Shown here: piece by piece, positions 12,158 through 36,590 of the stretch
Numbering within the stretch: the first letter of the stretch is position 1
Layout: each line of letters starts with the position of its first letter
Assembly (NCBI RefSeq): GCF_000242635.2
Contig: NC_017770.1
Coordinates: forward strand, 3,546,669-3,610,668
DNA length: 64,000 nucleotides
From: Solitalea canadensis DSM 3403
GTDB taxonomy: Bacteria > Bacteroidota > Bacteroidia > Sphingobacteriales > Sphingobacteriaceae
Reading direction: 5' to 3'
The notes under the pieces: generated by a model
What the model saw: only the letters and a program-made list of their open reading frames with translations
Database searches by the model: none
What the model was told of the DNA's origin: nothing
Translations under genes and position numbers: made by a program

Positions 12158-12775
12158 CTATTTCTCCAAAATTACATAAGAACCTTTAGCACCAGGAACT
12201 GATCCGCTGATAACTAATAAATTCTGCTCAGTGAACACTTTTAAAACTTGTAAGTTTTGAATTTTCACGCGGTTACCACCCATACGACCAGCCATACGCA
12301 TACCTTTGAATACACGTGAAGGCCATGAAGATGCACCTAATGAACCAGGAGCTCTCAAACGGTTGTGCTGACCGTGAGTTTGGCCACCTACCCCTGAGAA
12401 ACCATGACGTTTAACTACGCCTTGGAAACCTTTACCTTTTGAAGTACCTACAACTTCTACGTAGTCGCCTTCTGCGAAAAGGTCTACGGAAATTACTTCA
12501 CCCAATGCTTTCTCTTCTTCAAAGTGCTTGAATTCCACCAGCTTACGCTTAGGAGAGGTATTAGCCTTTTTGAAGTGACCTAACAACTGTTTAGAAGTGT
12601 TTTTCTCCTTCTTCTCGTCGTAGGCCAACTGGATCGCTGAGTATCCGTCTTTTTCTAAAGTTTTTACTTGCGTAACTACGCAAGGACCAGCTTCGATAAC
12701 TGTGCATGGAATGTTTTTTCCATCGGCACCGAAGATGCTGGTCATTCCAACTTTCTTACCTATAATACCAGACAT
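12158..12775 (-). CDS. rplC: 50S ribosomal protein L3
   Basis: The 205-residue protein begins [20 protein letters not shown] and has the L3 signature [20 protein letters not shown] and the loop [20 protein letters not shown] near the peptidyl transferase centre. It is the first gene of this block. The usual upstream neighbour rpsJ is about 12.5 kb away, beyond an unrelated module, and a consensus promoter lies just upstream. Confidence 0.98.
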
Positions 12776-12885
12776 TCTAAAAATTGATTAATTAATTAAT
12801 TTTTCTCTCTCCTTTATTGCTTCTGCTTCACAAACTGCAAACATTTTGGTTTTTAGAATGTTACACTTCACGCGTTAAAGGACCG

Positions 12886-12916
12886 CAAAGGTAGAAAACT
12901 GTTATCTAATTTCAAA
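12886..12916 (-). promoter_or_regulatory. Predicted Bacteroidota promoter for the rplC-led S10 operon
   Basis: On the minus strand TTTG (12916-12913) is followed by 19 bp and TACCTTTG (12893-12886), an exact fit to the Bacteroidota sigma consensus TTTG-N19/21-TAnnTTTG. The predicted transcript would begin near 12879, leaving a leader of about 100 nt before the rplC start at 12775. The leader has a small stem (AATGTT/AACATT at 12857-12862 and 12840-12845). Confidence 0.75.
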
Positions 12917-12998
12917 GAGTTAATCAATTAATTTTCAATATTTTTTATCATTCAAATAAGTCCACTTTCTGTTCTTGATTTTCATTCCTGAAAAATGA

Positions 12999-13026
12999 AA
13001 GTCCCGGATATTTCTACCCGGGACTT
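12999..13026 (-). terminator. Intrinsic terminator after the PorP/SprF gene
   Basis: AAGTCCCGG (12999-13007) and CCGGGACTT (13018-13026) form a perfect 9-bp stem with a 10-nt loop. On the minus strand it is followed by TTTCATTTTT. It ends transcription from the module at 13-21 kb just before the rplC promoter. Confidence 0.8.
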
Positions 13027-13072
13027 CGATCCCAAAATGAATGAATAGATAATTATTCAATTATTATTTTCA

Positions 13073-14041
13073 TTATTTACCCATGCTAAACAATAATGAA
13101 ATATCGTGAGCTCCTGTATTTAATCCGGTCTCTCTTCCTATACTAAAGTTATAGGCATATCCAACTTTTAAAAATTGATTATTCTTGCCAGTATTTAATT
13201 TAAACCTGATCATTGGTCGAAATGATGATTGACCATTCCCGTTTTCATCTGTTGTTACATTCTTAATTTCACTCAGATAACGGTAACCAATCCCTGCATC
13301 AATTCCTTCCGTTAATGTTGCCATAACATTGAGATCATATGCATTCATTCCTTTAAATGTTTTCATTATTAATAGGCCCGATTCAAGCTTATTGACATCA
13401 TTAAGTCGAATCTCTCCCCCTCCTATTATATACATACTGATCTTCCTAAACATTGGAGGTATTTGATTTTCGAGATCTTGCTTATTGGTGTAAAAGGATA
13501 ATATATTGTCAAAGGAAACCCCAACATAGTAGTTATTATTGAAGGTGGCACTAAGTCCATAGCGCGCATTCATTTTAGAGCTATAAATGTTTTGCTTTTC
13601 TAAAGGATCATTGGGATTTACTGTTGTTAGGTCGGCCAGATTAATTTGAAATTGCTGTAAACCCAAACTTAATCCTGACGATAAACCAACTTTTTCCGAA
13701 ACCTGAAGATGATAGGCATAATTAATATATGCAGTAGTATAATGATCATTTCCAAATACCATACTCATAACATTTACTCCTATTCCTGATTTAATTTTAG
13801 ATAGGTAGAAATTTCCTGCTGCATTAATATTATATGATTTACCCGGATTCTGACTTATTTCTTTTAGCTGGAAGTTCGCACTAGCAGCGATCAATCCACT
13901 GCTTCCTGAAAAAGCTGGATTAACATAGGTTTTATCAAATAAGTACTGGCTCCCTTGCATTTCCACTTGTGCAAAAGCCGGCATAGTAAAACTTAACAGT
14001 ATTACTGTTATCCTTACTGTGCTATTATATATAGTTTTCAT
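13073..14041 (-). CDS. PorP/SprF family type IX secretion membrane protein
   Basis: The 322-residue protein has a signal peptide ending near PAFAQ (residue about 25), then the family opening EMQGSQYLFDKTYVNPAFSG and repeated amphipathic strands of an outer-membrane beta-barrel, with GIGYRYLSEIKN and FLKVGYAYNFSIG near the C-terminus. In Flavobacterium johnsoniae sprF lies downstream of sprB and is needed for export or anchoring of SprB. Here the gene follows the giant type-B-CTD protein by 60 bp on the same strand, the same arrangement. That it serves this cargo is inference from position. Confidence 0.88.
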   Translation of the reverse strand: MKTIYNSTVRITVILLSFTMPAFAQVEMQGSQYLFDKTYVNPAFSGSSGLIAASANFQLKEISQNPGKSYNINAAGNFYLSKIKSGIGVNVMSMVFGNDHYTTAYINYAYHLQVSEKVGLSSGLSLGLQQFQINLADLTTVNPNDPLEKQNIYSSKMNARYGLSATFNNNYYVGVSFDNILSFYTNKQDLENQIPPMFRKISMYIIGGGEIRLNDVNKLESGLLIMKTFKGMNAYDLNVMATLTEGIDAGIGYRYLSEIKNVTTDENGNGQSSFRPMIRFKLNTGKNNQFLKVGYAYNFSIGRETGLNTGAHDISLLFSMGK

Positions 14042-14101
14042 AATAATTTTTAAGGTTTAATAAATCAACAATCACCCATTCAAGTTTTGCTGATTTAGTT
14101 T

Positions 14102-17100
14102 TTAATAAACAATTGTTATATATCCCTTAAATACCTGTTCAACTCCATCCTTGCCTTTAACCTTAAGAATGTAGCCATATGAACCCATTGGTAAATTATC
14201 GCCAGTCCAATCATTCTGATAATTATCCTTCTTAAAAATCTGGTTATAGGCTTTATTAAAAATGATTAAGGTATTAGATGCATAAAACTCATTCACTCCA
14301 ACAATTTCAAACAGATCATTTATGCCATCTCCATTTGGAGTAAACAAAGAAGGTATCAATAGCTTAGCACTATTTGATCGGTTATCAATCACCCTTAGTG
14401 ATTGAGGTTTCAGTGAGTTATTACTAAGGTTTACATCATTATTAACAACTATATTTCCTTTACCGAGGTATGTATCACCTATCTTGTTCGCCTTCAACAC
14501 TAGAATGATCTCCTGTTCAGCCTCTGCTTCTAATTTTGCCAGTTGAATCTCCATAACATTCTCGACATCGTTAAAAGAGGTATTAGCAAATGAAGACGAT
14601 ATGTAATTAATGCTTGCGTCAAGTGTATCTTTCAAGATTGCATTAACAGCTAGATCTTTACCTACATTTTTAATCCTAATGATGTAGTTAAAGTTTTCAC
14701 CCTTATTTACTTCCGAAGATTCAACTATATTTTCCACCTTCAAATCTGCATTTCCTTCTAATACTAATATTACAGGATGGTCAATATTTCCGGTGATTTG
14801 ATCTCCTTGCTGTTTTAGAGGTTCTTCTACTTTGGCTGTGTACTCTTTCTTTTCCACTTTATCATAAACCTTAATTTCCACTGTTTTGCCATCATCTGTT
14901 TTATCACCATTCACCGGAATAAATCCAACCGATTTTCCATCCGGCAGCACAACTTGGTTTACAATATTTACCAGTTTATTTTCTACATATACATAAGTTT
15001 CATAGCGGTTGTTGGTGTTGTTTATAATCTGTCCACCTTGATTTATCACCGAGGTAACCGACATGTTATTTTCATAATTAACCGTATTTACCGATGTATT
15101 TTGATAAACTGTACTGGTAACTGTTGTATTGTTATTATTGATGATCGTTGGCGCTGCTGGATTATAAACTGGGGCCGTCTGGATATTTCCTTGATCTTCG
15201 CCTGGATTTGGAGCATATGGAATAACTGGAATAGTAAAGGTGTCGGTTCCACTGTAAATCTTGTACCCTTTGCCTGGTCGTAAATATTTCAAACTACCCG
15301 ACCATGTTTTGGTTACCGCATTATATTGAGCAAATTCCTCCTGACTAACTACCTTTAATCCGTCTGATGGGTTAAAATTTTTCAAGTATGTACCCAATTC
15401 CATATTTATAGCCATAGGATATCCTGTCCAGTTCCAACCTTTATTTAATACCACGTTGGCCGGTTGAGTCATGAAATTACCCAGCACTCGTAATGTATCA
15501 GGTTTAGCTACATAAATCATATAACTATTATATAAGTTGATTTTATCGAACGTTCCAACCCAACCTAATTTTGATGAATACTGACTGTATGTATTATTAT
15601 TGCTGAGTGTTTTAATAATATCACCTTCTGTGGGCTTCAATGAGCTTAAAATCTTTTTCAAACTCATATCCGAGTTCTCCACATTTAATGAAATCCAGGT
15701 CCAACCTTTCTTTAAAGGAATTGTTTGAATTACGCCTTCCGGATGTAGAATGATGGGGTTTGTTAAATTACCTATTGTACCATTGGCCACAAAGGAAAGT
15801 AGTTCCTTGCCTTGATACTCAACTCCTGGGTAAGCATCCCAAAAACGAATAGTTAGCTCCTCTCCTGCTGTATTCGAATAAGCAGTAATATACGCGATGT
15901 ATTTATTTGCATCGCTATCATATTCTATAGGTGCGATGCCTCTACATTCATTTCCTACGAAAACACCTATTTTGTCTCTAATGTCTTTTGAAGTAAGCGT
16001 ATCAGTTTGATTAAGACTAAACTGGGCAGTCACGGCCATATTGTATTTGAACGCGGAAGGATTCACCGTCCAGACAGGGGGAGTTTTCGAAACATTTACT
16101 TTTACATACAGGAACTGTCTTTTACCATCAATTAATGCAATAACTGTATCTGCATAAGTTCCGGTATTAAGATTTTTGTTCAACTCAAAGTCGATGTTTT
16201 CCTGACCCTGTGCCACAATTTTGCTTGATTTAATTGTTGGACGCAGCCATTCGGGGTATTTAATTAATGAAAAGTTTTGGGGTGTGCCCGATTTGTTTAT
16301 CAACTTAGCTCCAAAACTAGTTTGCTGGTTTTCTATTGCATTGATTGTAATGTTAGCGGGCGACCAATAAACAGGACTTAAATTGACTACAAAGCTCCAG
16401 CTTATGCTGTCTGCCACTTTATTTCCTATTACATCGGTTAAATTCTTAATGGTTGCAATCAGTTCAACATTTTCATAATCGTTAATTGCATTGGCGGGAA
16501 TAGTCCTGATCTCAAAGTTTTTACCGTCACTTAAAAAAGTAGCAGGAATAAGCTGACCATTATCTTTACGCTTCAGTGTGACCTTCACCGGATTTGAAAT
16601 ATCTGCATACACGATATCTTTATTAAAGGTTATTCCGATAATATCGGCTACCGTTAATATTCCATTCTTCGGACTTGGTACACCAAATGCTACGGCCGAC
16701 TTTCGATCTATTTTGCCCTTATACACTGGTGAATAATTTACATCCACACCCTGGCAAATAGCGATTGCTCTTAGCTCATAATTACCATCCGGCAATCCGC
16801 TAACATCGAATGTATAATCATAATACTTGTCTTTTAAATTAGCTTTAGGAACAGTAATAACAGTTTGCCATAATCCATTTTCATAATCAGTATTTATTTT
16901 GCGGTACTGCAAACCCACGGTGGTAAGTGGCGATGATTCTGAGGCATCATACTTACTAAAGGCAACAAATAATTGATTATTGTTTGACTGATTTACCACC
17001 CAATTATCTCCAGGCACAAAGAGATCAACATCACTGCATCTATTTTGGAAATAGGCGTTAAATTTAACTTTTGGTTTAGCTAGTGTATCAAATTCTGAAA

Positions 17101-20100
17101 TATCATCTAAGGTGTTATCACAAGTTGAGAAAATTACCAATGTTAGATTTTCATAAGTGCTTGTTAACGGACCTCTATACACCTCAACAGGAAGTTTAAA
17201 GCTTTTGCCTGTTGGAATATAATAAGTAGCTGCCTTATTGGTTACATCCTGACCACCCACTAAAACTTTTGCTCCATCCAGATTAGATAATGGATCTAAT
17301 TTAATGGCATACTCAACAGTTTCATCACTTTCGCTTCTGTTAGAAATTAGAATTTCAAATTTCGCAGGTTTATCAGAAGGAACATTTCGCTGTTCACTCA
17401 CACCGGCAATTTGCATTGCAGGTAAATGCCTGAACTGCGTATTATTTTCATGAGGACAGCTTGAAGAGCCCGAAACGGTTTTAAAAACAGGGGTTCCATA
17501 AACCTGATCCTCTGCTAATCCTACTGAGAAGAAATCACCTATATCATTATCTTCTAAATGATAACTGGTTGTGGTGCTGGTGGTAGTACTGTTTTCCTTA
17601 TTCTTGCTATGGTTAAACCTAAAAGTGACTAACCCTCCGGCATTAGTTTCATTTGCCTCACCTCCATGCATTGAAATACCTACTTTAACATATCCATTAA
17701 GGTAAACTGAAACTTCATCAAACGTTGTAGTATCAGCATCAATGCTTATCGTATTATCATAGATCGCACCAGAACTAAAAGAAATATTACCTCCAACAAC
17801 ACCCTTCACCCCATCAGGCAGTTTTCGATCCTTAGCATTTTTTCTGTTTGCTTCATTTTTTACTAAGGCGGACTTCCAGGCATCAATATTAGCTTTATAC
17901 TCCAACTGCTGTTGGTTCATTTTCTCCAACACTTCATTACTAATACTGTTGTCTCCACTTTTCACTTTCTGGTAAGCTACATCATAATCTGATTTTGAAA
18001 TACTATAAAGCGTACTCAGTTGTGCCAGTAAAGTATTTTTAATATGTTTCTCGGTGTATAAGAAAGTGGTATTGAAACCATCATTATTTACAGCTAATGA
18101 GGTATCTCTATCCATATCTTGTTTGGATTCATTGTAGTATAACTTATCCGTTAAAGCATAAGTCATATTAAGAGAGGCACCCACATATAAATCACCTTCA
18201 TTGCCAACCAATGTTTCCTCTCCTGAAGTAGAGAAATCTTCCGTAAACGTAATTGTTCTATTAGTAGTAGTGCCTGAGTTTTTGTCGGCCCCCGCTTCTA
18301 CTTCACTCTGTATCTGTATAGCTGCTCCTATTTTACCAATAATAGGTAACACCACCCCTTTACCAGTTTTTACATCAGCATAAGCTCCTCCCCCTGCTCC
18401 ACCGCCATACTGAGTAGTGCTTGTGGTTGAAATGGTTGTCCCTTTAGATATTTTTGAAAAGGATTTATCTCCCGGAGGATCATGTAATACAAAGAATGGT
18501 ATTTCAGGAGTTTTTGTAACAAAAGTTTCTCGTCGGGGTCTTTCACCTTCAACAACAGCTTTTACAATAACACTTGTTTGTCGGCCTCCAACCTTACCTA
18601 CAAATTGAATTGATTTTTCATAAGGAGCTTCTAATACAGGTTGTCCGACTTTGACAAAGTACTTTACAAACCCAGAATCCATTTTTAACTCCTGGCGATC
18701 AGTACTATCAGAAATAGCATCATAAATATATACGGTACCGGTATCAAGTGCACAATTGTATTGAACGCCATCATACTCATAAGTTTCTCTTATTTTAATG
18801 TTTACCGGGTACTTATCATTTTGAGCCACTAAAAATTTATCCTGACCAGTTGGCCTGAATTTCTTTTTCTCAGAGAAGATGTCATTACCGTTATTTAATA
18901 GAACCTCAAGGTCTTTATGATAAATAAAATCAGCTTGTCTAATTACTGCTTTTCCATCAATGGTATCTCTTTTTCCTAAATCTGCACTTTGTACATTGTA
19001 CTCACGTGTAAAATATTCAAGCTTATTGCTATTAATCCCATTGAGCTCCCTTACCTCTACTACCTGAACATTAAACTGGGTTGCAGGTAAAATTAAAGAG
19101 GTTATGCCCGGTTCCTTTTGGCCGAATGTAGTTCCTCTCGAAAAGGCTTTTGAACTAATCTTAATGGGTTTTCCATAAATCAGCTTATCTCCTGTAGGTG
19201 TTACACCAGCAACTGCGGAAGTCAACTTTACCAACGCATACTCACCAATAAAGGCATCACAACTTGCTGCTACATGTATATTTAAGGTATCTGTTGTTAA
19301 ATCTTCAAAGTCAACTCCATTAACCAAACTATAAACGCTTACTCTTTTACTGCTTACTATTTCTCCAACTGCTTTTATAGTATGATTCTTAAACTTTGCT
19401 TCAACTGTATAAACACCTCCATTTATAATTGTAGTGCTATAGCTACCATCAGGACTGGTTTTTGTTTGCGTATTTTTACCATCTACCCATATTTCTGCAT
19501 CCTTCAATGGAAGTTTAATACTTACTCCATTTGAATCTATCAAACTCGAAAAATAAACCTTTCCACTAATTGCAAAGGAAGCTGTGTCAGAGAAATTTAC
19601 CTGGCTTTGATTAAAGTTATCAATATCTAGTTTACGAATTAGGCTGTCCGGATCAAACCGAGGCTTATCGTAACCAGGCATTTTAGGTTTTACAATATAT
19701 TCAGCAGATGCTGCAAAAAAGATATTGCTAATTTCATAATAGCCATCAGCCCCTGATGTTGTTGTATAAGAATAGGTTTGAGCTGTTTCTTTATCAGACA
19801 AGTTGGTTTTAGAGGTTACTGTAATTTCTACTCCTGGTACACCACCATTAGTCTTTCCTTTAACATAACCGCTTATTTTCCCTTTGGGTAAACTTCTCCC
19901 CTTGGCAATATTGGATGTCCAGTTGTTAACATCAATTGCTGGTGTATTAGGATCTTCATCCTCAATTAAACCCAAGCGATAGGAATAATACATGCCTGGC
20001 ATAACATCCGGATCATTATAAGTTTTTGTTGTTTTAGTAAGCTCAGTTATTACTTCACCATCCCTAAAAATAGCAATGCGCTCTAATCCCTTAATACTAC

Positions 20101-20926
20101 TTAGCGTTGGCCATGTTAACTTTATTCTACCAACATCTGTTTGGGTTGCCGTTAACTGAAATGATTGGGAAGAGATTGTTGTAGAAACAGCATCTGAAAC
20201 ATCTCTAATCCAATCTCCGGGAGCATTAGGACCAACAATTGTTTGAACCGTATAAGAATAACCCATCCCTGGCAAAATCCCGGTGTCAACAAACTCAACA
20301 GATCCACCACTCGCTCTGGCAATCTCGGTTCCATTACGCTTAATGAGGTATTGGATGTTATTGTTATCGATAGACGTACCTTTATTCCAAGTCAGTTTAA
20401 CGGAATAATTTGGTGAAGTTTGAAAGGAAGCTAACAGGTTGACTGGCGCTTTGATTTTAGCGGTTGTTCCCGAAAAAGATGAATACCCCCAATGCAAATT
20501 ACAACCGGTAGAGTTACTTCCGGTTTCGTATTTGAAAACGATTGTATACGGCATACTTGGGCCTAATTGTATAGCCCCGTTTCCGGCTCCGGCAGAAGCA
20601 GAACTTAATGAACCACTATCAAAACCGGCCCATCCGGGAGACGTTCCAGACCAAGTTTTCAAAATGTGACTGTTCTCACTATCTACATTATCACACCACA
20701 CCTTACCGTCGGTATCGTAACGCGCAAAGCCCCACCAGTTGAAGTGAAAATATTGATCATCTACAGAGCTCGACATTTTACCCTGAATATTCAGGTCACC
20801 TTGAGCTAATGTTTTCTGATTTGTTGCGAAAAGCAGTAACATAAGTAAAGGAAGAAAACGAAATAGTCGCTTCCTTAATTGAAACCGTTTAAGGCAATTA
20901 CAATTTTTAAGTAAATGTGCAATCAT
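14102..20926 (-). CDS. Giant secreted multidomain protein with T9SS type B sorting domain
   Basis: The protein is 2274 residues. A basic N-terminus and hydrophobic stretch (FLPLLMLLLFATNQKTLAQ) form a signal peptide ending near residue 42. Fibronectin-III-like modules lie at about 160-345, carboxypeptidase-regulatory-like Ig folds (GKISGYVKGKTNGGVPGVEI and a second copy) at about 350-540, a bacterial Ig-like domain at about 1450-1550, an Asn/Thr-rich linker near 1905-1975, and a DUF11-like repeat (NADLKVENIVESSEVNKGEN) near 2070-2180. The last 85 residues (SLFTPNGDGINDLFEIVG to FKGYITIVY) are the gliding-motility-associated type B C-terminal domain used for type IX export. It is probably a cell-surface adhesin or matrix protein like SprB; the ligand is unknown. 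A PorP/SprF gene follows. Confidence 0.9.
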   Translation of the reverse strand: MIAHLLKNCNCLKRFQLRKRLFRFLPLLMLLLFATNQKTLAQGDLNIQGKMSSSVDDQYFHFNWWGFARYDTDGKVWCDNVDSENSHILKTWSGTSPGWAGFDSGSLSSASAGAGNGAIQLGPSMPYTIVFKYETGSNSTGCNLHWGYSSFSGTTAKIKAPVNLLASFQTSPNYSVKLTWNKGTSIDNNNIQYLIKRNGTEIARASGGSVEFVDTGILPGMGYSYTVQTIVGPNAPGDWIRDVSDAVSTTISSQSFQLTATQTDVGRIKLTWPTLSSIKGLERIAIFRDGEVITELTKTTKTYNDPDVMPGMYYSYRLGLIEDEDPNTPAIDVNNWTSNIAKGRSLPKGKISGYVKGKTNGGVPGVEITVTSKTNLSDKETAQTYSYTTTSGADGYYEISNIFFAASAEYIVKPKMPGYDKPRFDPDSLIRKLDIDNFNQSQVNFSDTASFAISGKVYFSSLIDSNGVSIKLPLKDAEIWVDGKNTQTKTSPDGSYSTTIINGGVYTVEAKFKNHTIKAVGEIVSSKRVSVYSLVNGVDFEDLTTDTLNIHVAASCDAFIGEYALVKLTSAVAGVTPTGDKLIYGKPIKISSKAFSRGTTFGQKEPGITSLILPATQFNVQVVEVRELNGINSNKLEYFTREYNVQSADLGKRDTIDGKAVIRQADFIYHKDLEVLLNNGNDIFSEKKKFRPTGQDKFLVAQNDKYPVNIKIRETYEYDGVQYNCALDTGTVYIYDAISDSTDRQELKMDSGFVKYFVKVGQPVLEAPYEKSIQFVGKVGGRQTSVIVKAVVEGERPRRETFVTKTPEIPFFVLHDPPGDKSFSKISKGTTISTTSTTQYGGGAGGGAYADVKTGKGVVLPIIGKIGAAIQIQSEVEAGADKNSGTTTNRTITFTEDFSTSGEETLVGNEGDLYVGASLNMTYALTDKLYYNESKQDMDRDTSLAVNNDGFNTTFLYTEKHIKNTLLAQLSTLYSISKSDYDVAYQKVKSGDNSISNEVLEKMNQQQLEYKANIDAWKSALVKNEANRKNAKDRKLPDGVKGVVGGNISFSSGAIYDNTISIDADTTTFDEVSVYLNGYVKVGISMHGGEANETNAGGLVTFRFNHSKNKENSTTTSTTTSYHLEDNDIGDFFSVGLAEDQVYGTPVFKTVSGSSSCPHENNTQFRHLPAMQIAGVSEQRNVPSDKPAKFEILISNRSESDETVEYAIKLDPLSNLDGAKVLVGGQDVTNKAATYYIPTGKSFKLPVEVYRGPLTSTYENLTLVIFSTCDNTLDDISEFDTLAKPKVKFNAYFQNRCSDVDLFVPGDNWVVNQSNNNQLFVAFSKYDASESSPLTTVGLQYRKINTDYENGLWQTVITVPKANLKDKYYDYTFDVSGLPDGNYELRAIAICQGVDVNYSPVYKGKIDRKSAVAFGVPSPKNGILTVADIIGITFNKDIVYADISNPVKVTLKRKDNGQLIPATFLSDGKNFEIRTIPANAINDYENVELIATIKNLTDVIGNKVADSISWSFVVNLSPVYWSPANITINAIENQQTSFGAKLINKSGTPQNFSLIKYPEWLRPTIKSSKIVAQGQENIDFELNKNLNTGTYADTVIALIDGKRQFLYVKVNVSKTPPVWTVNPSAFKYNMAVTAQFSLNQTDTLTSKDIRDKIGVFVGNECRGIAPIEYDSDANKYIAYITAYSNTAGEELTIRFWDAYPGVEYQGKELLSFVANGTIGNLTNPIILHPEGVIQTIPLKKGWTWISLNVENSDMSLKKILSSLKPTEGDIIKTLSNNNTYSQYSSKLGWVGTFDKINLYNSYMIYVAKPDTLRVLGNFMTQPANVVLNKGWNWTGYPMAINMELGTYLKNFNPSDGLKVVSQEEFAQYNAVTKTWSGSLKYLRPGKGYKIYSGTDTFTIPVIPYAPNPGEDQGNIQTAPVYNPAAPTIINNNNTTVTSTVYQNTSVNTVNYENNMSVTSVINQGGQIINNTNNRYETYVYVENKLVNIVNQVVLPDGKSVGFIPVNGDKTDDGKTVEIKVYDKVEKKEYTAKVEEPLKQQGDQITGNIDHPVILVLEGNADLKVENIVESSEVNKGENFNYIIRIKNVGKDLAVNAILKDTLDASINYISSSFANTSFNDVENVMEIQLAKLEAEAEQEIILVLKANKIGDTYLGKGNIVVNNDVNLSNNSLKPQSLRVIDNRSNSAKLLIPSLFTPNGDGINDLFEIVGVNEFYASNTLIIFNKAYNQIFKKDNYQNDWTGDNLPMGSYGYILKVKGKDGVEQVFKGYITIVY

Positions 20927-21129
20927 AGTTTAAGTGGTGAATGATTTAGATTGAATAGTATATAGAACCACCAACAAGGCCTATAAACCAAACCCAAACC
21001 TAATCATCACTACTTCTTAACTATTAACAATGTATGTGAAAGGAATACTTTAGCATGTGAACAGCAAAATTATTGCTGTAAAGAATAATGATTAACCTTA
21101 CTTTTTAAGTATCTTATAGAGAGGAATGA
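20927..21129. other. Spacer between response regulator and giant surface protein gene
   Basis: This 203-bp A/T-rich stretch has no gene. A TAGGTTTG box (minus strand, 21002-20995) matches the Bacteroidota -7 element, but no TTTG is found at the right distance, so a promoter for the giant gene is only possible. No terminator-like stem is apparent, so read-through from the LytTR gene into the giant gene is possible. Confidence 0.35.
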
Positions 21130-21903
21130 TTAACGAAAATCAAAACATTTGAAAAATTCATCTTTATAATTTCTACCTAATGGAACCTCATTTTTCCCAA
21201 TATTTAAGAAGACATCATTAAATGTGGTTAAATGATCGAGATTTACTGCATAGGATCGATGGACACGAATAAGTCCGGGCATTTCAAGTTTCTCAAGAAT
21301 AGCATTTAATGATAAACGAAGCGAATATTGCTTATCGACAGTATATATATTGGTGTAGTTATTTTCAGCTTCCAGATAGTATATGTCTTCGAGTTTAATC
21401 TTTAAAAAACGATAATTCTGTTTAATAAAAACATGTCCATTAAAATGCAAGATAGATTCTTTCCCGCTCTGCTCCTTTTCTTTGCCTTGCAGCGTAAAAA
21501 CAGGAGTTGAATCCACCTCTTTCCGAACTGCAAAATTATTGAGAGCCATCTCAATTGCTATTCTCAGGTTTGCAATTTGAAAAGGTTTTACCAAATAGGC
21601 TGATGGGAAGGTTTCCTTAGCTCGCTCAATAGTCGCTGCATCCGTAAATGCAGTTAAATAAATAAACGGAACTTCTCGCATTGATAAAATTCTCTTTATT
21701 GTTTCGATGCCGTCACAATCACCTTTAATACTCACATCCATTAATAAAAGGTCAACCGCATTATTTTTGAATATTGATAATGCTTCATCTGCATTATCGG
21801 CAACTCCGGCAATTGTAAAGCCCTCCAACAATAGTTTCTCTTCCAAATCCATCGCAAGAATGGCCTCGTCTTCCACTATCATTACATTAATATTGTCTTT
21901 CAT
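21130..21903 (-). CDS. LytTR-family response regulator
   Basis: The protein is 257 residues. The receiver domain (about 5-122) has the acidic pair Glu11/Asp12, phosphoacceptor Asp56 (DLLLMDVS), the Thr of YLTAF and the Lys of LVKPF. The LytTR DNA-binding domain (about 150-257) has KLEDIYYLEAENNYTNIYT, then RVHRSYAVNLDHL and VPLGRNYKDEFF. It is divergent from a HisKA_2 kinase at 22083 and lies upstream of the giant surface protein in the same direction, so it may regulate that gene. The pairing with the kinase is inferred from position. Confidence 0.92.
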   Translation of the reverse strand: MKDNINVMIVEDEAILAMDLEEKLLLEGFTIAGVADNADEALSIFKNNAVDLLLMDVSIKGDCDGIETIKRILSMREVPFIYLTAFTDAATIERAKETFPSAYLVKPFQIANLRIAIEMALNNFAVRKEVDSTPVFTLQGKEKEQSGKESILHFNGHVFIKQNYRFLKIKLEDIYYLEAENNYTNIYTVDKQYSLRLSLNAILEKLEMPGLIRVHRSYAVNLDHLTTFNDVFLNIGKNEVPLGRNYKDEFFKCFDFR

Positions 21904-22082
21904 AAGAATGATAAATGAGGAGAGCTTAATAGAAATAAATGATATTTAAATATTTTTACAATTGCGAAAATAAATAAAACAACAGACTTAAACGCTTAAC
22001 TCATTCGCATTATTTATTATTTTTGTTTGACTATTAACTAGTTATTACTGCTCTCCTTAAGTTATCAACCTAAATCTATCCA
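21904..22082. other. Divergent control region between response regulator and kinase
   Basis: This 179-bp A/T-rich spacer lies between two divergently transcribed regulators. On the plus strand TATTTTTG (22018-22025) fits the -7 element, about 57 bp before the kinase start, but a -33 TTTG at the expected distance is absent. I see no clear direct repeats for LytTR binding. Confidence 0.35.
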
Positions 22083-23870
22083 ATGAACCATTGCTCAGTC
22101 AGGTACCCAATATTGGCATTTTGCTTTATTTTAACAGGATTTATGATTGCCTGCAAAAAGGAAAATCCACCATTTAATGAATTCAAAAAGGTTTTATCTC
22201 CTATAGCAATTGAAGAGTTATATAAAAAAGGAAATAGAACTTCATTAAGCGATTCCATTAATTATTATTCAAAACATTTGCTAGAGGTTTCAACAGATAA
22301 TAACGATGCTTATATCAAAGGGAAAACTCTTGAAGCCAAATATTTATGGAGAACGGGGCAACATCAAAAGGCGATTACCTCAGCAATGGAAGGATTAAAA
22401 GAGGCACATCTAAATAACAATACAAAGCAAATTCCTTGGTTACATGCCATTTTAGCTAATGTTTTCAAAGAGAAAGAGAGCTATTCATTAGCAATGGAAA
22501 ATGCAAAAAAAGGTCTTGATCAGGCAATTACTTCAAAAGACACTGTAAATATTATTTACCTGATGAGGGTAAATGCTATGATCTGGAGGGGTTATGGTAT
22601 GGTGACAAATAATGAAAACTATATTAATAAATCTATCACCACACATCTTGAAGGATTAAAACTTGCAGAAAGCTCACCTAAGTATAAACTTGAACGTCCC
22701 GGATATTATAGTAATATTTCTCAGTTTTATCTTGAACATAGGAATGATTTTGAAAGTGCTATATATTATGGATTAAAAGGTCATGAAATAAGTACCAAGA
22801 ATAACGACTTTAGTAACCTGTCATACATAAGTAGTTGGTTAGGAATTGCTTATTACAAGAAAGGTGACAATAAAAGAGGTGAGCATTATTTAAATGAAGC
22901 ACTAATTGCTTCACAAAAAACCAAACGTATTTTCAGGGAGATGGAGATTTATAGGGAATTCTCAGAATATAATGCCCTTAATGGTAACTATAAAGCTTCA
23001 TTAGATTATCTGAAAAGATACAACTCCATCCATGATTCACTTGGTGTAGTTGATAATCTTAAAGCAATTAATGAGTTGGAAGTTCAATATAAATCAGAAC
23101 TGAAGGACAAACAAATTGCGCTGTTGAATCAGATCGAGAAGAATAATACTGCTAAGTTCACCTTAGCAATTGTAGTACTTTCCATTGTAGTAATATCTAT
23201 CATCATATTAAGTTTTCAATATCGCCAGATTAGAAATAACAATAAAAAAATTGTTCAACAGGCAGATAAACTTCAGTTACTACTTAAAGAACTTCATCAT
23301 CGTGTAAAAAACAACCTTCAAATCATATCAAGTCTGCTCAGCTTGCAGTCGAACCGACTGGTGGATGAGGATGTAAAAAAGGTTGTGCAAACCGGACAGC
23401 AACGTATTGAAGCAATGTCGCTTATTCACCGTAATCTCTATCAGCTCAATAATCCCGGAATGGTGAACATGAAAGAATACATTACTGATTTATGTGAGAG
23501 TTTGTCCAAAAGCTTCGGTTTTTCATTAGATGACCTTCAACTAAAAATTGAGATTGATCTGGATGAACTAGATGTTGATAAGGCCATTCCTTTAGGTTTG
23601 ATTATTAATGAATGGATTACCAATGCATTTAAATATGCTTATGAAGATGTAAAAAGGCCGGAATTAACCATAAGTTTGACGCTTGAAGAAGGAATTAAAT
23701 TATCAATTGAAGACAACGGACCTGGTTTACCAACGGAAAAATGGGAGAATCCTCAATCATCATTTGGTTTAAAACTGGTTAAAGTGTTAAGTAAACAACT
23801 AAATGGACATTTCAAACTTGATAATACTAAAGGAACATTGTTTAGTTTAAATATTCCAATGGCTAGCTAA
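22083..23870 (+). CDS. TPR-containing HisKA_2 sensor histidine kinase
   Basis: The protein is 595 residues. The N-terminus (ILAFCFILTGFMIACKKEN) ends in a lipobox-like MIAC, so Cys24 could be lipidated. TPR-like helices fill about 50-335. A single membrane segment (FTLAIVVLSIVVISIIILSF) is near 360-380. The HisKA_2 dimerisation motif LKELHHRVKNNLQIISSLLS carries His405/His406, followed by the HATPase region with INEWITNAFKYAY (N box) and EDNGPGLP (G box). It probably phosphorylates the adjacent LytTR regulator. The IS3 element begins 31 bp after its stop. Confidence 0.92.
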   Translation: MNHCSVRYPILAFCFILTGFMIACKKENPPFNEFKKVLSPIAIEELYKKGNRTSLSDSINYYSKHLLEVSTDNNDAYIKGKTLEAKYLWRTGQHQKAITSAMEGLKEAHLNNNTKQIPWLHAILANVFKEKESYSLAMENAKKGLDQAITSKDTVNIIYLMRVNAMIWRGYGMVTNNENYINKSITTHLEGLKLAESSPKYKLERPGYYSNISQFYLEHRNDFESAIYYGLKGHEISTKNNDFSNLSYISSWLGIAYYKKGDNKRGEHYLNEALIASQKTKRIFREMEIYREFSEYNALNGNYKASLDYLKRYNSIHDSLGVVDNLKAINELEVQYKSELKDKQIALLNQIEKNNTAKFTLAIVVLSIVVISIIILSFQYRQIRNNNKKIVQQADKLQLLLKELHHRVKNNLQIISSLLSLQSNRLVDEDVKKVVQTGQQRIEAMSLIHRNLYQLNNPGMVNMKEYITDLCESLSKSFGFSLDDLQLKIEIDLDELDVDKAIPLGLIINEWITNAFKYAYEDVKRPELTISLTLEEGIKLSIEDNGPGLPTEKWENPQSSFGLKLVKVLSKQLNGHFKLDNTKGTLFSLNIPMAS

Positions 23871-23930
23871 TTCAGCATAAGATGAATTTTCCTGAACAGT
23901 CTGAATGGTCCTGAAATAAGTTGACAGATT

Positions 23931-24626
23931 TTATACAGATCCCAGTTGCATAAGTAGCTGGGATTTTTGTTTATAAACACACTGAGGTGTTTGCATTTGC
24001 AAAGATAAATGCGGACGATAGTTGTTGTATAAATTTACGGCTTCTTCTGCTAATAATTTTGCATGAAGCTTAGATTTCAGCCTATTCCCTAAGCCAAATT
24101 CTTCTTTTAACGTTCTGTTCATTCGCTCTGCCAGCGCATTTTCATACGGATCGGACTGTTCGGTCATGCTCATGGTAATTGCATGTGAACTGGCAAGGCC
24201 CACGTATTCTGCACTACAGTATTGCAATCCTCTGTCTGAATGATGAATCAATCCATCCGTTTTTGTTTGGCGGTGTTTAATGGCCATTTGAAGGGCTTGC
24301 TTCATCTGGACTGCTTCCATGCTATCTGCTACTACATAACCCATAATCTTTCGGCTATAGACGTCGGTCACCAAGTTTAGATAGCAGTTGCCCTCATCCG
24401 TTTTTAAATAGGTGATATCACTTACCCAAACCTGATCAGGCTGATCAACCGTTCTGTTTTTAAGCAAATTGGGATATTTCCTGAGCCAATGTTTGGACAT
24501 AGTGGTTTGCACATACCGCCGTTTAGGCCAAATCAACAACTGATGATTACGTAAGAAGTCAAAGAGTTTATCCCTGCCCATTTTGATCTGCTGAGCCTGA
24601 AAGCTATCCCGAAGCTGATGATGCAA
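23931..24626 (-). CDS. IS3-family transposase OrfB (DDE integrase), copy 1
   Basis: The rve integrase core shows the DDE residues in context: WVSDITYL (Asp), HHSDRGLQYCS (Asp) and ENALAERMNRTLKEEFG (Glu). The frame is open upstream to about 24839, with LHHQLRD preceded by sequence including FVANTLGYSRQYFYKHCKEQ, so the product is most likely made as an OrfAB fusion of about 413 residues by -1 frameshifting. The given start is a TTG used only to mark the frame. It is intact and identical to the second copy. Confidence 0.92.
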   Translation of the reverse strand: MHHQLRDSFQAQQIKMGRDKLFDFLRNHQLLIWPKRRYVQTTMSKHWLRKYPNLLKNRTVDQPDQVWVSDITYLKTDEGNCYLNLVTDVYSRKIMGYVVADSMEAVQMKQALQMAIKHRQTKTDGLIHHSDRGLQYCSAEYVGLASSHAITMSMTEQSDPYENALAERMNRTLKEEFGLGNRLKSKLHAKLLAEEAVNLYNNYRPHLSLQMQTPQCVYKQKSQLLMQLGSV

Positions 24627-24763
24627 TTTCCGTCCACCTAAGCGTGATAAAACTTTCCGTTCTTTTTCAACCAGTTTCTTTACGGCAGCTTCTTGCGCTG
24701 CTTGTAAAGCCTGCTCTTTACAGTGCTTGTAAAAGTATTGTCGGCTATAACCTAAAGTGTTTG

Positions 24764-25171
24764 CTACAAATTTGACGGGATATCCTCCTCTGACTGAGCC
24801 TGCTTTGTAGCTTCGGATAACAGGCTCAAATACTTTTTTCGAATATCGGTATGAAACTGGCTGTCGGCTATATCGATGGCCCGGTTCAGTATTTCCTTTT
24901 CCTGTTCCAGCCGTTTGAGCTTTTTCTCCAGTTCTTTTATTTTTTTACTAGGCGTATCGCGTTTCATGAGCTCTGATTCTTTCCAGTCTAATCTACCATG
25001 TTTTCGCAACCAAACCAAAACAGTGCTTCTTCCCTGGATTCCGTAACGAAGCTGCGCCTGCTTATATGTAAGTTCGCCTTTTTCTACCGCGTCCACAATC
25101 TCCAGTTTAAAGGCTAAACTGTAATCTTTTTGAGTCCTTCGATGGTAACTCTTAATTTCCTGATCTTTCAT
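24764..25171 (-). CDS. IS3-family transposase OrfA, copy 1
   Basis: The 135-residue protein has an N-terminal helix-turn-helix (YSLAFKLEIVDAVEKGELTY, RYGIQGRSTVLVWLRKHG) that would bind the inverted repeats. A leucine-zipper-like coiled coil follows (IKELEKKLKRLEQEKEILNR). Near its end lies the heptamer A AAA AAG (24839-24833, minus strand), in phase for a -1 shift into OrfB. Confidence 0.92.
   Translation of the reverse strand: MKDQEIKSYHRRTQKDYSLAFKLEIVDAVEKGELTYKQAQLRYGIQGRSTVLVWLRKHGRLDWKESELMKRDTPSKKIKELEKKLKRLEQEKEILNRAIDIADSQFHTDIRKKYLSLLSEATKQAQSEEDIPSNL
24833..24839 (-). other. Programmed -1 frameshift heptamer of IS copy 1
   Basis: A AAA AAG is read as CGA AAA AAG in the orfA frame, and the -1 frame stays open from here through orfB. 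This is the standard IS3-family arrangement for making OrfAB. Frameshifting itself is inferred. Confidence 0.75.
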
Positions 25172-25225
25172 ATAGTTAACTCTTGTTGTGTCAACTTATT
25201 TCAGGACGGAACAGTCCAAAAACAA

Positions 25226-25251
25226 AAAAGGCCGACATAAGTCGGCCTTTT
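25226..25251 (-). terminator. Intrinsic terminator of the rpsL-rpsG-fusA-rpsJ operon
   Basis: AAAAGGCCGAC (25226-25236) and GTCGGCCTTTT (25241-25251) form a perfect stem with loop ATAA. It has A- and T-runs on both sides, so it can act in both directions. It lies 17 bp after the rpsJ stop and shows that the str transcript ends here instead of continuing to rplC. The IS copy 1 end is 12 bp away. Confidence 0.85.
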
Positions 25252-25268
25252 CTTTTCAGTATCTACTA

Positions 25269-25574
25269 TCACACTTTGATCTCAACTTCAACACCTGAAG
25301 GTAATTCAAGTTTCATCAACGCGTCAACAGTTTTAGCGTTAGAGCTATAGATATCCAATAAACGTTTGTAAGAACATAATTGGAACTGCTCACGTGCTTT
25401 TTTGTTAACGTGTGGAGAACGAAGTACAGTGAAGATTTTTTTCTCTGTTGGTAACGGAAGTGGTCCGCTAACTACTGCGCCAGTAGGCTTAACAGTTTTT
25501 ACGATTTTATCAGCTGATTTATCAACTAAGTTGTAATCGTAAGATTTTAATTTAATACGAATTCTTTGGCTCAT
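25269..25574 (-). CDS. rpsJ: 30S ribosomal protein S10
   Basis: The 101-residue protein begins [20 protein letters not shown] and has [20 protein letters not shown], the S10 loop region, and [11 protein letters not shown] at the end. S10 is in the 30S head and also binds NusB in antitermination. It is normally directly followed by rplC; here it is the last gene before a terminator, separated from rplC by the IS and the T9SS module. Confidence 0.98.
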
Positions 25575-33504: not shown

Positions 33505-33561
33505 AATTTTTTAAAGGAGTGTTCCGTCCTGAAATAAGTTGACACAACAAGAGTTAACTAT

Positions 33562-33969
33562 ATGAAAGATCAGGAAATTAAGAGTTACCATCGAAGGACT
33601 CAAAAAGATTACAGTTTAGCCTTTAAACTGGAGATTGTGGACGCGGTAGAAAAAGGCGAACTTACATATAAGCAGGCGCAGCTTCGTTACGGAATCCAGG
33701 GAAGAAGCACTGTTTTGGTTTGGTTGCGAAAACATGGTAGATTAGACTGGAAAGAATCAGAGCTCATGAAACGCGATACGCCTAGTAAAAAAATAAAAGA
33801 ACTGGAGAAAAAGCTCAAACGGCTGGAACAGGAAAAGGAAATACTGAACCGGGCCATCGATATAGCCGACAGCCAGTTTCATACCGATATTCGAAAAAAG
33901 TATTTGAGCCTGTTATCCGAAGCTACAAAGCAGGCTCAGTCAGAGGAGGATATCCCGTCAAATTTGTAG
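33562..33969 (+). CDS. IS3-family transposase OrfA, copy 2
   Basis: The 135-residue protein is identical in sequence to the OrfA of copy 1: helix-turn-helix domain, then coiled coil (KKLKRLEQEKEILNRAIDIA). Codons CGA AAA AAG at 33892-33900 hold the slippery heptamer; the stop lies 67 bp beyond it. Confidence 0.92.
   Translation: MKDQEIKSYHRRTQKDYSLAFKLEIVDAVEKGELTYKQAQLRYGIQGRSTVLVWLRKHGRLDWKESELMKRDTPSKKIKELEKKLKRLEQEKEILNRAIDIADSQFHTDIRKKYLSLLSEATKQAQSEEDIPSNL
33894..33900 (+). other. Programmed -1 frameshift heptamer of IS copy 2
   Basis: A AAA AAG is in phase with orfA. The -1 frame reads on without a stop (VFEPVIRSYKAGSVRGGYPV, then KFVANTLGYSRQ) into OrfB, giving a fusion of about 413 residues. 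Frameshifting is inferred from the family. Confidence 0.75.
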
Positions 33970-34106
33970 CAAACACTTTAGGTTATAGCCGACAATACTT
34001 TTACAAGCACTGTAAAGAGCAGGCTTTACAAGCAGCGCAAGAAGCTGCCGTAAAGAAACTGGTTGAAAAAGAACGGAAAGTTTTATCACGCTTAGGTGGA
34101 CGGAAA

Positions 34107-34802
34107 TTGCATCATCAGCTTCGGGATAGCTTTCAGGCTCAGCAGATCAAAATGGGCAGGGATAAACTCTTTGACTTCTTACGTAATCATCAGTTGTTGA
34201 TTTGGCCTAAACGGCGGTATGTGCAAACCACTATGTCCAAACATTGGCTCAGGAAATATCCCAATTTGCTTAAAAACAGAACGGTTGATCAGCCTGATCA
34301 GGTTTGGGTAAGTGATATCACCTATTTAAAAACGGATGAGGGCAACTGCTATCTAAACTTGGTGACCGACGTCTATAGCCGAAAGATTATGGGTTATGTA
34401 GTAGCAGATAGCATGGAAGCAGTCCAGATGAAGCAAGCCCTTCAAATGGCCATTAAACACCGCCAAACAAAAACGGATGGATTGATTCATCATTCAGACA
34501 GAGGATTGCAATACTGTAGTGCAGAATACGTGGGCCTTGCCAGTTCACATGCAATTACCATGAGCATGACCGAACAGTCCGATCCGTATGAAAATGCGCT
34601 GGCAGAGCGAATGAACAGAACGTTAAAAGAAGAATTTGGCTTAGGGAATAGGCTGAAATCTAAGCTTCATGCAAAATTATTAGCAGAAGAAGCCGTAAAT
34701 TTATACAACAACTATCGTCCGCATTTATCTTTGCAAATGCAAACACCTCAGTGTGTTTATAAACAAAAATCCCAGCTACTTATGCAACTGGGATCTGTAT
34801 AA
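34107..34802 (+). CDS. IS3-family transposase OrfB (DDE integrase), copy 2
   Basis: The protein is identical to OrfB of copy 1, with the DDE residues in WVSDITYL, HHSDRGLQYC and ERMNRTLKEEF. The frame is open from the slippery site at 33894, so this segment is the catalytic part of OrfAB and need not start separately at the TTG given here. Confidence 0.92.
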   Translation: MHHQLRDSFQAQQIKMGRDKLFDFLRNHQLLIWPKRRYVQTTMSKHWLRKYPNLLKNRTVDQPDQVWVSDITYLKTDEGNCYLNLVTDVYSRKIMGYVVADSMEAVQMKQALQMAIKHRQTKTDGLIHHSDRGLQYCSAEYVGLASSHAITMSMTEQSDPYENALAERMNRTLKEEFGLGNRLKSKLHAKLLAEEAVNLYNNYRPHLSLQMQTPQCVYKQKSQLLMQLGSV

Positions 34803-34841
34803 AATCTGTCAACTTATTTCAGGACCATTCAGAGATTAAAA

Positions 34842-36519: not shown

Positions 36520-36590
36520 TAGCCCGACCTGGATTCGAACCAAGACTAAATGAACCAAAATCACTTGTACTACCCTTATACTATCGGGCT
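36520..36590 (-). tRNA. tRNA-Gln (anticodon TTG)
   Basis: On the minus strand AGCCCGA pairs with TCGGGCT as the 7-bp acceptor stem, with discriminator A. The anticodon arm AGTGA-TTTTGGT-TCATT gives anticodon TTG, which reads CAA/CAG. The T-arm contains GGTTCGAATCC. The CCA end is not encoded. Confidence 0.95.

Follow-up and report, generated by a model that had tools for sequence, protein, structure and literature searches.

In the chromosome of Solitalea canadensis DSM 3403 (contig NC_017770.1, positions 3,546,669 to 3,610,668; these 64,000 nucleotides (nt) are the window), the ribosomal protein genes rpsJ and rplC are separated by a module that carries a secretion-related gene pair, a two-component pair and an insertion sequence (IS). 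The str-S10-spc cluster is a textbook example of gene order conservation, and the S10 operon classically opens with rpsJ. What, then, parted rpsJ from rplC here, and was it the module that did so? The initial annotation of the window had reported a 12.5-kb separation and suggested that the module entered by insertion or rearrangement, uncoupling S10 from L3/L4. Profile searches of the translated genes (Pfam, TIGRFAM/NCBIfam models) bear out the separation (12,496 bp) and the identities of the genes within it. At the same time, our comparison suggests, with a probability of roughly three in four, that the rpsJ-rplC junction in this family is a transcription-unit boundary tolerant of insertions, and that the module is one of several passengers there.

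Opening of the rpsJ-rplC junction in the family

On the str side of the window the order is rpsL-rpsG-fusA-rpsJ, and on the S10-spc side it is rplC-rplD-rplW-rplB onward. An assembly artefact is an unlikely source of the gap, since both sides lie on a single 5.2-Mb contig and one congener (G004) has a similar layout.

The junction was surveyed in 201 genomes (rpsJ found in 193, rplC in 190) of what we take to be the Sphingobacteriaceae, with Pedobacter, Sphingobacterium and Mucilaginibacter as the named kin. The survey covers 144 relatives: 110 in which the positions of rpsJ and rplC were both among the matches listed, and 34 in which a match to the hairpin described below stands for rplC. Four of the 144 are contiguous, with gaps of 290 bp (G046), 338 bp (G029), 265 bp (G030) and 230 bp (G078). 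The two genes lie on the same contig and strand with 2.2–35.8 kb between them in 72 relatives; in 20 they share a contig but are widely separated, inverted in order or on different strands; in the other 48 they are on separate contigs, which proves nothing in draft assemblies. A split peculiar to this genome is therefore not supported. Contiguous arrangements are found in two of the three congeners of the window (G029 and G046) and in the single examined genome each of genera g7, g10 and g24 (G007, G010 and G024, picked as genus representatives from outside the 144).

Other junctions of the cluster behave differently, as seen in 53 loci chosen partly for their gaps and followed as far as their sequence reaches. 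Any two neighbours among rpsL-rpsG-fusA-rpsJ (111 pairs) are separated by 190 bp or less, and any two from rplC to secY (449 pairs) by 320 bp or less, while 22 of 29 rpsJ-rplC pairs exceed 600 bp, a figure that, in gap-chosen loci, is not a rate. Opening of the rpsJ-rplC junction is thus common in Sphingobacteriaceae, with the other str and S10-spc junctions staying closed.

In the wider phylum, where the best 80 of 587 rplC matches by score gave an uneven sample of loci, rpsJ lies within 600 bp of rplC in 54. It is 0.6–10 kb away in six, four of them Hymenobacter, and absent for at least 9 kb upstream in 16, ten of which fall outside the Sphingobacteriaceae side; four loci were too short for a call. 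The four Hymenobacter-titled loci (L094, L114, L116, L120) have spacings of 1.0–1.75 kb. Taken with the contiguous g7, g10 and g24 genomes and the two contiguous congeners, the 54 loci make the interval of the window look derived from a contiguous state, so that this part of the initial proposal stands. That proposal had named interval comparison as its test and a split throughout the order, with no contiguous ancestor, as the result that would speak against it; the comparison gave no such picture.

Predicted promoter and terminator signals at the junction

The features on the two sides of the interval are as follows.

25269..25574, minus strand: rpsJ (uS10), closing gene of the str unit rpsL-rpsG-fusA-rpsJ (PF00338, TIGR01049)
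25226..25251, minus strand: predicted intrinsic terminator of rpsJ, hairpin AAGGCCGAC..GTCGGCCTT followed by a T run; comparable hairpins occur in contiguous congeners
12886..12916, minus strand: predicted Bacteroidota-type promoter of rplC, TTTG-N19-TACCTTTG
12776..12884, minus strand: 5' leader of rplC, about 110 nt, similar in all four genomes of the genus and without the family hairpin
12158..12775, minus strand: rplC (uL3), head gene of a shortened S10-spc unit (PF00297, TIGR03625)

Both signals had been proposed in the initial annotation, and the promoter pattern is exactly, and the hairpin with its T run about, where it had put them; both are predictions. In the leader, the stretch GAAAAATTAATTAATTAATCAATTTTTAGA just 5' of the rplC start (12776-12805, minus strand) is identical in all four genomes of the genus.

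The same signals recur across loci. Before rplC, 42 of 45 loci carry the promoter pattern (mean 0.35 of 45 in 20 rounds of shuffling), and a terminator-like hairpin, by a criterion of -12 kcal/mol or better devised for this analysis, lies downstream of rpsJ in 33 of 39 regions (0 of 39 in each of five shuffles). The contiguous congeners G029 and G046 have both a hairpin-T terminator after rpsJ and a TTTG-N19-TACCTTTG promoter before rplC, and the contiguous g5 genomes G030 and G078 have both a terminator-like hairpin and the promoter, all within gaps of about 230–340 bp. Since G029 and G046 are contiguous and yet carry both signals, separate transcription need not stem from the module. In g10 and g24, by comparison, only 74–77 nt lie between rpsJ and rplC, with the family hairpin present and both terminator and promoter absent.

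These observations bear directly on the view that the module caused the uncoupling, its insertion having cut a working rpsJ-rplC operon, with promoter and terminator coming along or arising later. In its favour are the base composition of the module (33–37% GC in the porP, cargo, regulator and kinase genes, against 39–40% in ribosomal genes) and the absence of a full-length relative of the cargo from two of the three congeners (G029 and G046, where matches reach its C-terminal part only). However, both signals are already there in the contiguous g5 genomes and congeners, and the DNA match between the window and G029 extends to 12935, past the rplC promoter. The contiguous congeners contradict this view unless the module was once present in them and was cleanly lost, which the genus tree allows; we reject the module as cause, considering it unlikely, and with it the uncoupling part of the initial proposal.

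Outside the family, five loci of Bacteroidales and Cytophagales in which rpsJ is absent for at least 9 kb upstream of rplC (L096, L098, L100, L102, L113) have a TTTG-N-TANNTTTG pattern 91–106 nt before rplC, which suggests parallel splits.

Layers and contents of the module

Between the rpsJ terminator and the rplC promoter the window holds the following.

23902..25213, minus strand: IS3-family element, 1312 bp, TG..CA ends, with a 3-bp duplication GTC at 23899-23901 and 25214-25216
23931-24626 and 24764-25171, minus strand: IS3 transposase pieces (profile search)
22083..23870, plus strand: sensor histidine kinase, HisKA_2, with a weak TPR match below cut-off (profile search)
21130..21903, minus strand: LytTR-type response regulator (profile search)
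14102..20926, minus strand: giant type-B cargo of the type IX secretion system (T9SS), 2274 amino acids (aa) (CHU_C/TIGR04131, CarboxypepD_reg, DUF11)
13073..14041, minus strand: PorP/SprF-family T9SS membrane protein (profile search)
13001..13024, minus strand: hairpin and broken T run after porP, a possible terminator between module and rplC (unscored, read by eye)

The module is layered. G004 has PorP/SprF (71% identical) and cargo (72% identical) genes at the same place, with a different TPR gene, weakly matching LuxR-type profiles, beside rpsJ and neither the two-component pair nor the IS. The LytTR-type regulator has no match in the rpsJ-rplC regions of the congeners, and the best matches of the histidine kinase in the three congeners are partial, at 25–30% identity. 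The PorP and cargo layer is thus one that G004 also has, and the two-component pair and IS3, seen only here, would have been added to it.

A PorP/SprF protein and a giant protein with a type-B C-terminal domain (CTD) form the usual secretion pair for surface proteins. Here the cargo scores 37.2 with TIGR04131 (cut-off 35) and the neighbouring PorP/SprF 142.4 with TIGR03519 (cut-off 90.55), and the module most likely works as an SprF/SprB-like surface-protein secretion pair. Like the SprB/SprF-type pair, it sets a giant type-B CTD protein beside a PorP/SprF-family gene; unlike that pair, it is a family match by sequence.

Could such a pair be kept beside ribosomal genes by selection, so that growth rate would set its expression or gene dosage? 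PorP/SprF and CHU_C-type cargo genes do stand at the rpsJ-rplC junction in three lineages, the window's genus and those of loci L181 and L192, as selected linkage would have it. At the same time, CHU_C-type proteins are numerous in the S. canadensis genome (18 matches at E<=0.001 when searched with the cargo, almost all of them to the cargo's C-terminal part), making coincidence plausible, and most intervals contain other genes; we find this explanation highly improbable. Because such proteins are numerous in these genomes, the module is most likely a passenger, not a regulator of the ribosome genes. As to the two other loci, L181:7922-11744, from a Pedobacter-side genome, has CHU_C on a 181-aa piece, a 798-aa collagen-repeat open reading frame and PorP/SprF, and L192:7539-18005, from a 1.5-Mb genome, has PKD-repeat proteins, with CHU_C below cut-off, and PorP/SprF.

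IS3 elements encode a transposase with a helix-turn-helix in OrfA and an integrase core in OrfB, have TG..CA terminal inverted repeats and make a 3-bp target duplication. The element in the window has TG..CA ends with a 19-nt perfect inner repeat, and NF033516 matches both of its pieces (OrfB piece 207.5, cut-off 160; OrfA piece alone 45.7, below cut-off). An identical 1312-bp copy at 33520-34831 (plus strand) lies in inverted orientation, its target duplication being CTC where that of the 23902-25213 copy is GTC. Having its own target duplication, the IS probably arrived alone, and a composite transposon is ruled out by that duplication together with the inverted twin 8.3 kb off, beyond the str unit. 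The two copies flank the str unit and its neighbours; were they to recombine, the intervening 8.3 kb would be inverted and str could be parted from S10.

An IS at one edge of the interval, and interval contents that vary between lineages, might also be expected of a mobile genomic island that a dedicated site-specific element had brought in. Against this, no exact word of at least 10 bases occurs at both edges of the interval in the window, no tRNA lies near it (the sole Rfam match in the window is a tRNA at 36520), and the IS, with its target duplication, probably came by itself. No integrase other than the IS3 transposase was found in the window interval, nor among the 25 scanned of 127 interval proteins. 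With both integrase and attachment repeat lacking, we reject an integrase-borne island for the window interval and consider the island explanation as a whole highly improbable.

A covarying hairpin before rplC

In most of the family rplC is preceded by a hairpin, which we described by a model (R1) and an alignment of 43 rplC leaders. It is about 34 nt long and has no T run, with a 5-bp outer stem that varies between leaders (GCC/GGC, GUC/GAC, ACC/GGU, AUC/GAU), an internal loop with UGA[A/G] opposite AU, and an inner stem of 6 bp that most rows give as CGAAGC/GCUUCG; it lies at about 55–15 nt 5' of rplC in L145-L206 and others. RNAalifold yields the same base pairs. Five of the 11 pairs are changed on both sides and 98.5% of cells are paired. 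None of 500 shuffles reached the observed values for cells paired, cells changed on both sides or covariation score, and three did for pairs changed; a fifth measure, further pair types, was not above shuffles (500/500 reach it), the other four being so.

R1 matches 185 of the 201 family genomes, at a single place each except for G142 with two. In all 112 genomes with both places listed (G142 left out), no more than 4 nt separate the end of the match from the start of rplC. Of the 16 genomes with no match, ten also have no rplC match; the remaining six are the four genomes of the window's genus, the window included, and two of g7. In a phylum sample R1 was found in 10 of 395 genomes, all in this family, under strict filters that may lose weak matches. 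Among 58 sequence sources without members of the hairpin family, L139 gave the sole match up to E=1, a weak hit (E 0.9) immediately 5' of rpsJ. Rfam at gathering score gave no match at the rplC leader, and in the loci of 14 relatives one tRNA in each of two. A text search of the plus strand of a single 23S rRNA locus from this genome, which is a weak test, found no copy of the longer core strings of the hairpin.

We propose that the hairpin is a candidate ribosomal leader for L4 or L3, and it may control rplC. In the window's genus it has been lost or replaced. When folded, the rplC leader of that genus shows no consistent signal (z of -0.17, 0.24, -2.12 and -1.08), and none of its pairs is changed on both sides. 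The leader reading thus concerns the family, not the window.

Probable order of events across the family

A FastTree phylogeny of 13 ribosomal proteins separates the window's genus, g7, g10 and g24 from the rest of the sampled genera, which are split except for g5 (0.97). Two genes recur among 24 intervals, that of the window included: one with no Pfam match, found in 19, and an NAD-binding one of about 418 aa, found in 15. They span about eight genera, pointing to a single early insertion with later additions on the Pedobacter/Mucilaginibacter side of the tree. Both genes follow rpsJ in G065, where rplC is elsewhere, so there rpsJ and rplC probably parted only once the insertion had taken place. 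In Sphingobacterium-side genomes the stretches searched contained neither, and the NAD-binding gene had no match in 12 chosen genomes, in a search run with no positive control.

A junction that became a transcription-unit boundary would account for this distribution. In the ancestor rpsJ and rplC would have been adjacent, with the hairpin in front of rplC; a terminator would then have arisen after rpsJ and a promoter before rplC, leaving rpsJ as the tail of the str unit and rplC as the head of its own. Inserts between them would from then on break no operon, and the gap could fill repeatedly. A small gene set may have been inserted early on the Pedobacter/Mucilaginibacter side and PorP and T9SS-cargo genes in three lineages, the window's genus among them, while in Sphingobacterium and others the two halves would have ended up far apart. 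The window would have received its PorP and cargo layer and afterwards the two-component pair and IS3. While gene order, distribution, layers and the presence of the sequence signals are observed, the order of events, the lack of read-through, the neutrality of the inserts and the function of the module are what we infer.

Several observations weigh against such a boundary. Inner support for grouping g7, g10 and g24 with the window's genus is low (0.28 and 0.35). The contiguous g5 genomes G030 and G078 are nested among split genera, so either the junction closed again or they kept the old state while neighbours opened independently; another g5 member, G068, has a 10.9-kb interval. G007 (g7) is contiguous with a gap of about 310 bp and has no terminator, promoter or family hairpin, and six of 39 rpsJ ends fail the terminator test, including three split genomes (G056, G145 and G191). 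Finally, a seven-gene DNA tree does not make sisters of S. canadensis and G004, the two genomes of the genus with the module (support 85 and 68), so that one gain followed by two losses, or else movement by recombination, has to be assumed.

Comparison with known systems and significance

The E. coli S10 leader opens the S10 operon mRNA, ahead of rpsJ, while the family hairpin stands before rplC, is short and without a T run, and is a candidate leader. The E. coli operon is under L4-mediated autogenous control via its leader (PMC10931766), and a structured leader over rplC-rplD is the role that we propose for the hairpin. Leaders for S4, L13, L19 and S15 are described in Bacteroidetes (PMC7247131), likewise as lineage-restricted hairpins upstream of ribosomal genes; in the portion of that source covered, none stands before rplC in Bacteroidetes, and the L4 entry is from Archaeoglobi and rated uncertain. 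The covered parts of PMC2864571 hold nothing on rplC.

Insertions between str and S10 are known in other phyla (PMC8046335) and are alike in bringing unrelated genes into the same ribosomal cluster by lineage-specific events. Compared with those cases, the break here falls after rpsJ, which stays with str, and is common across one family, complete separation included. Elsewhere the cluster is described as running from RpsL to RplQ, with no split in the sections seen (PMC7214798). In the portions of the open-licence literature searched, we found nothing on the rplC leader or the rpsJ-rplC split in this family, and no L3/L4 feedback element in this phylum.

A control point downstream of rpsJ would leave S10 outside the feedback loop, which would free rpsJ to serve as the last gene of the str unit and allow the junction to open. 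We hold this tentatively, at somewhat less than even odds. If true, the family would preserve the steps of a breakup: adjacent genes with no signals of their own, adjacent genes with terminator and promoter, genes kilobases apart, and genes fully apart. One junction repeatedly opened, with the intermediates still living, allows a test of what holds the cluster together, be it co-transcription, shared feedback or something else, and the covarying hairpin, with matches in 185 of 201 family genomes, offers a concrete and cheaply testable candidate for an L3/L4 feedback element.

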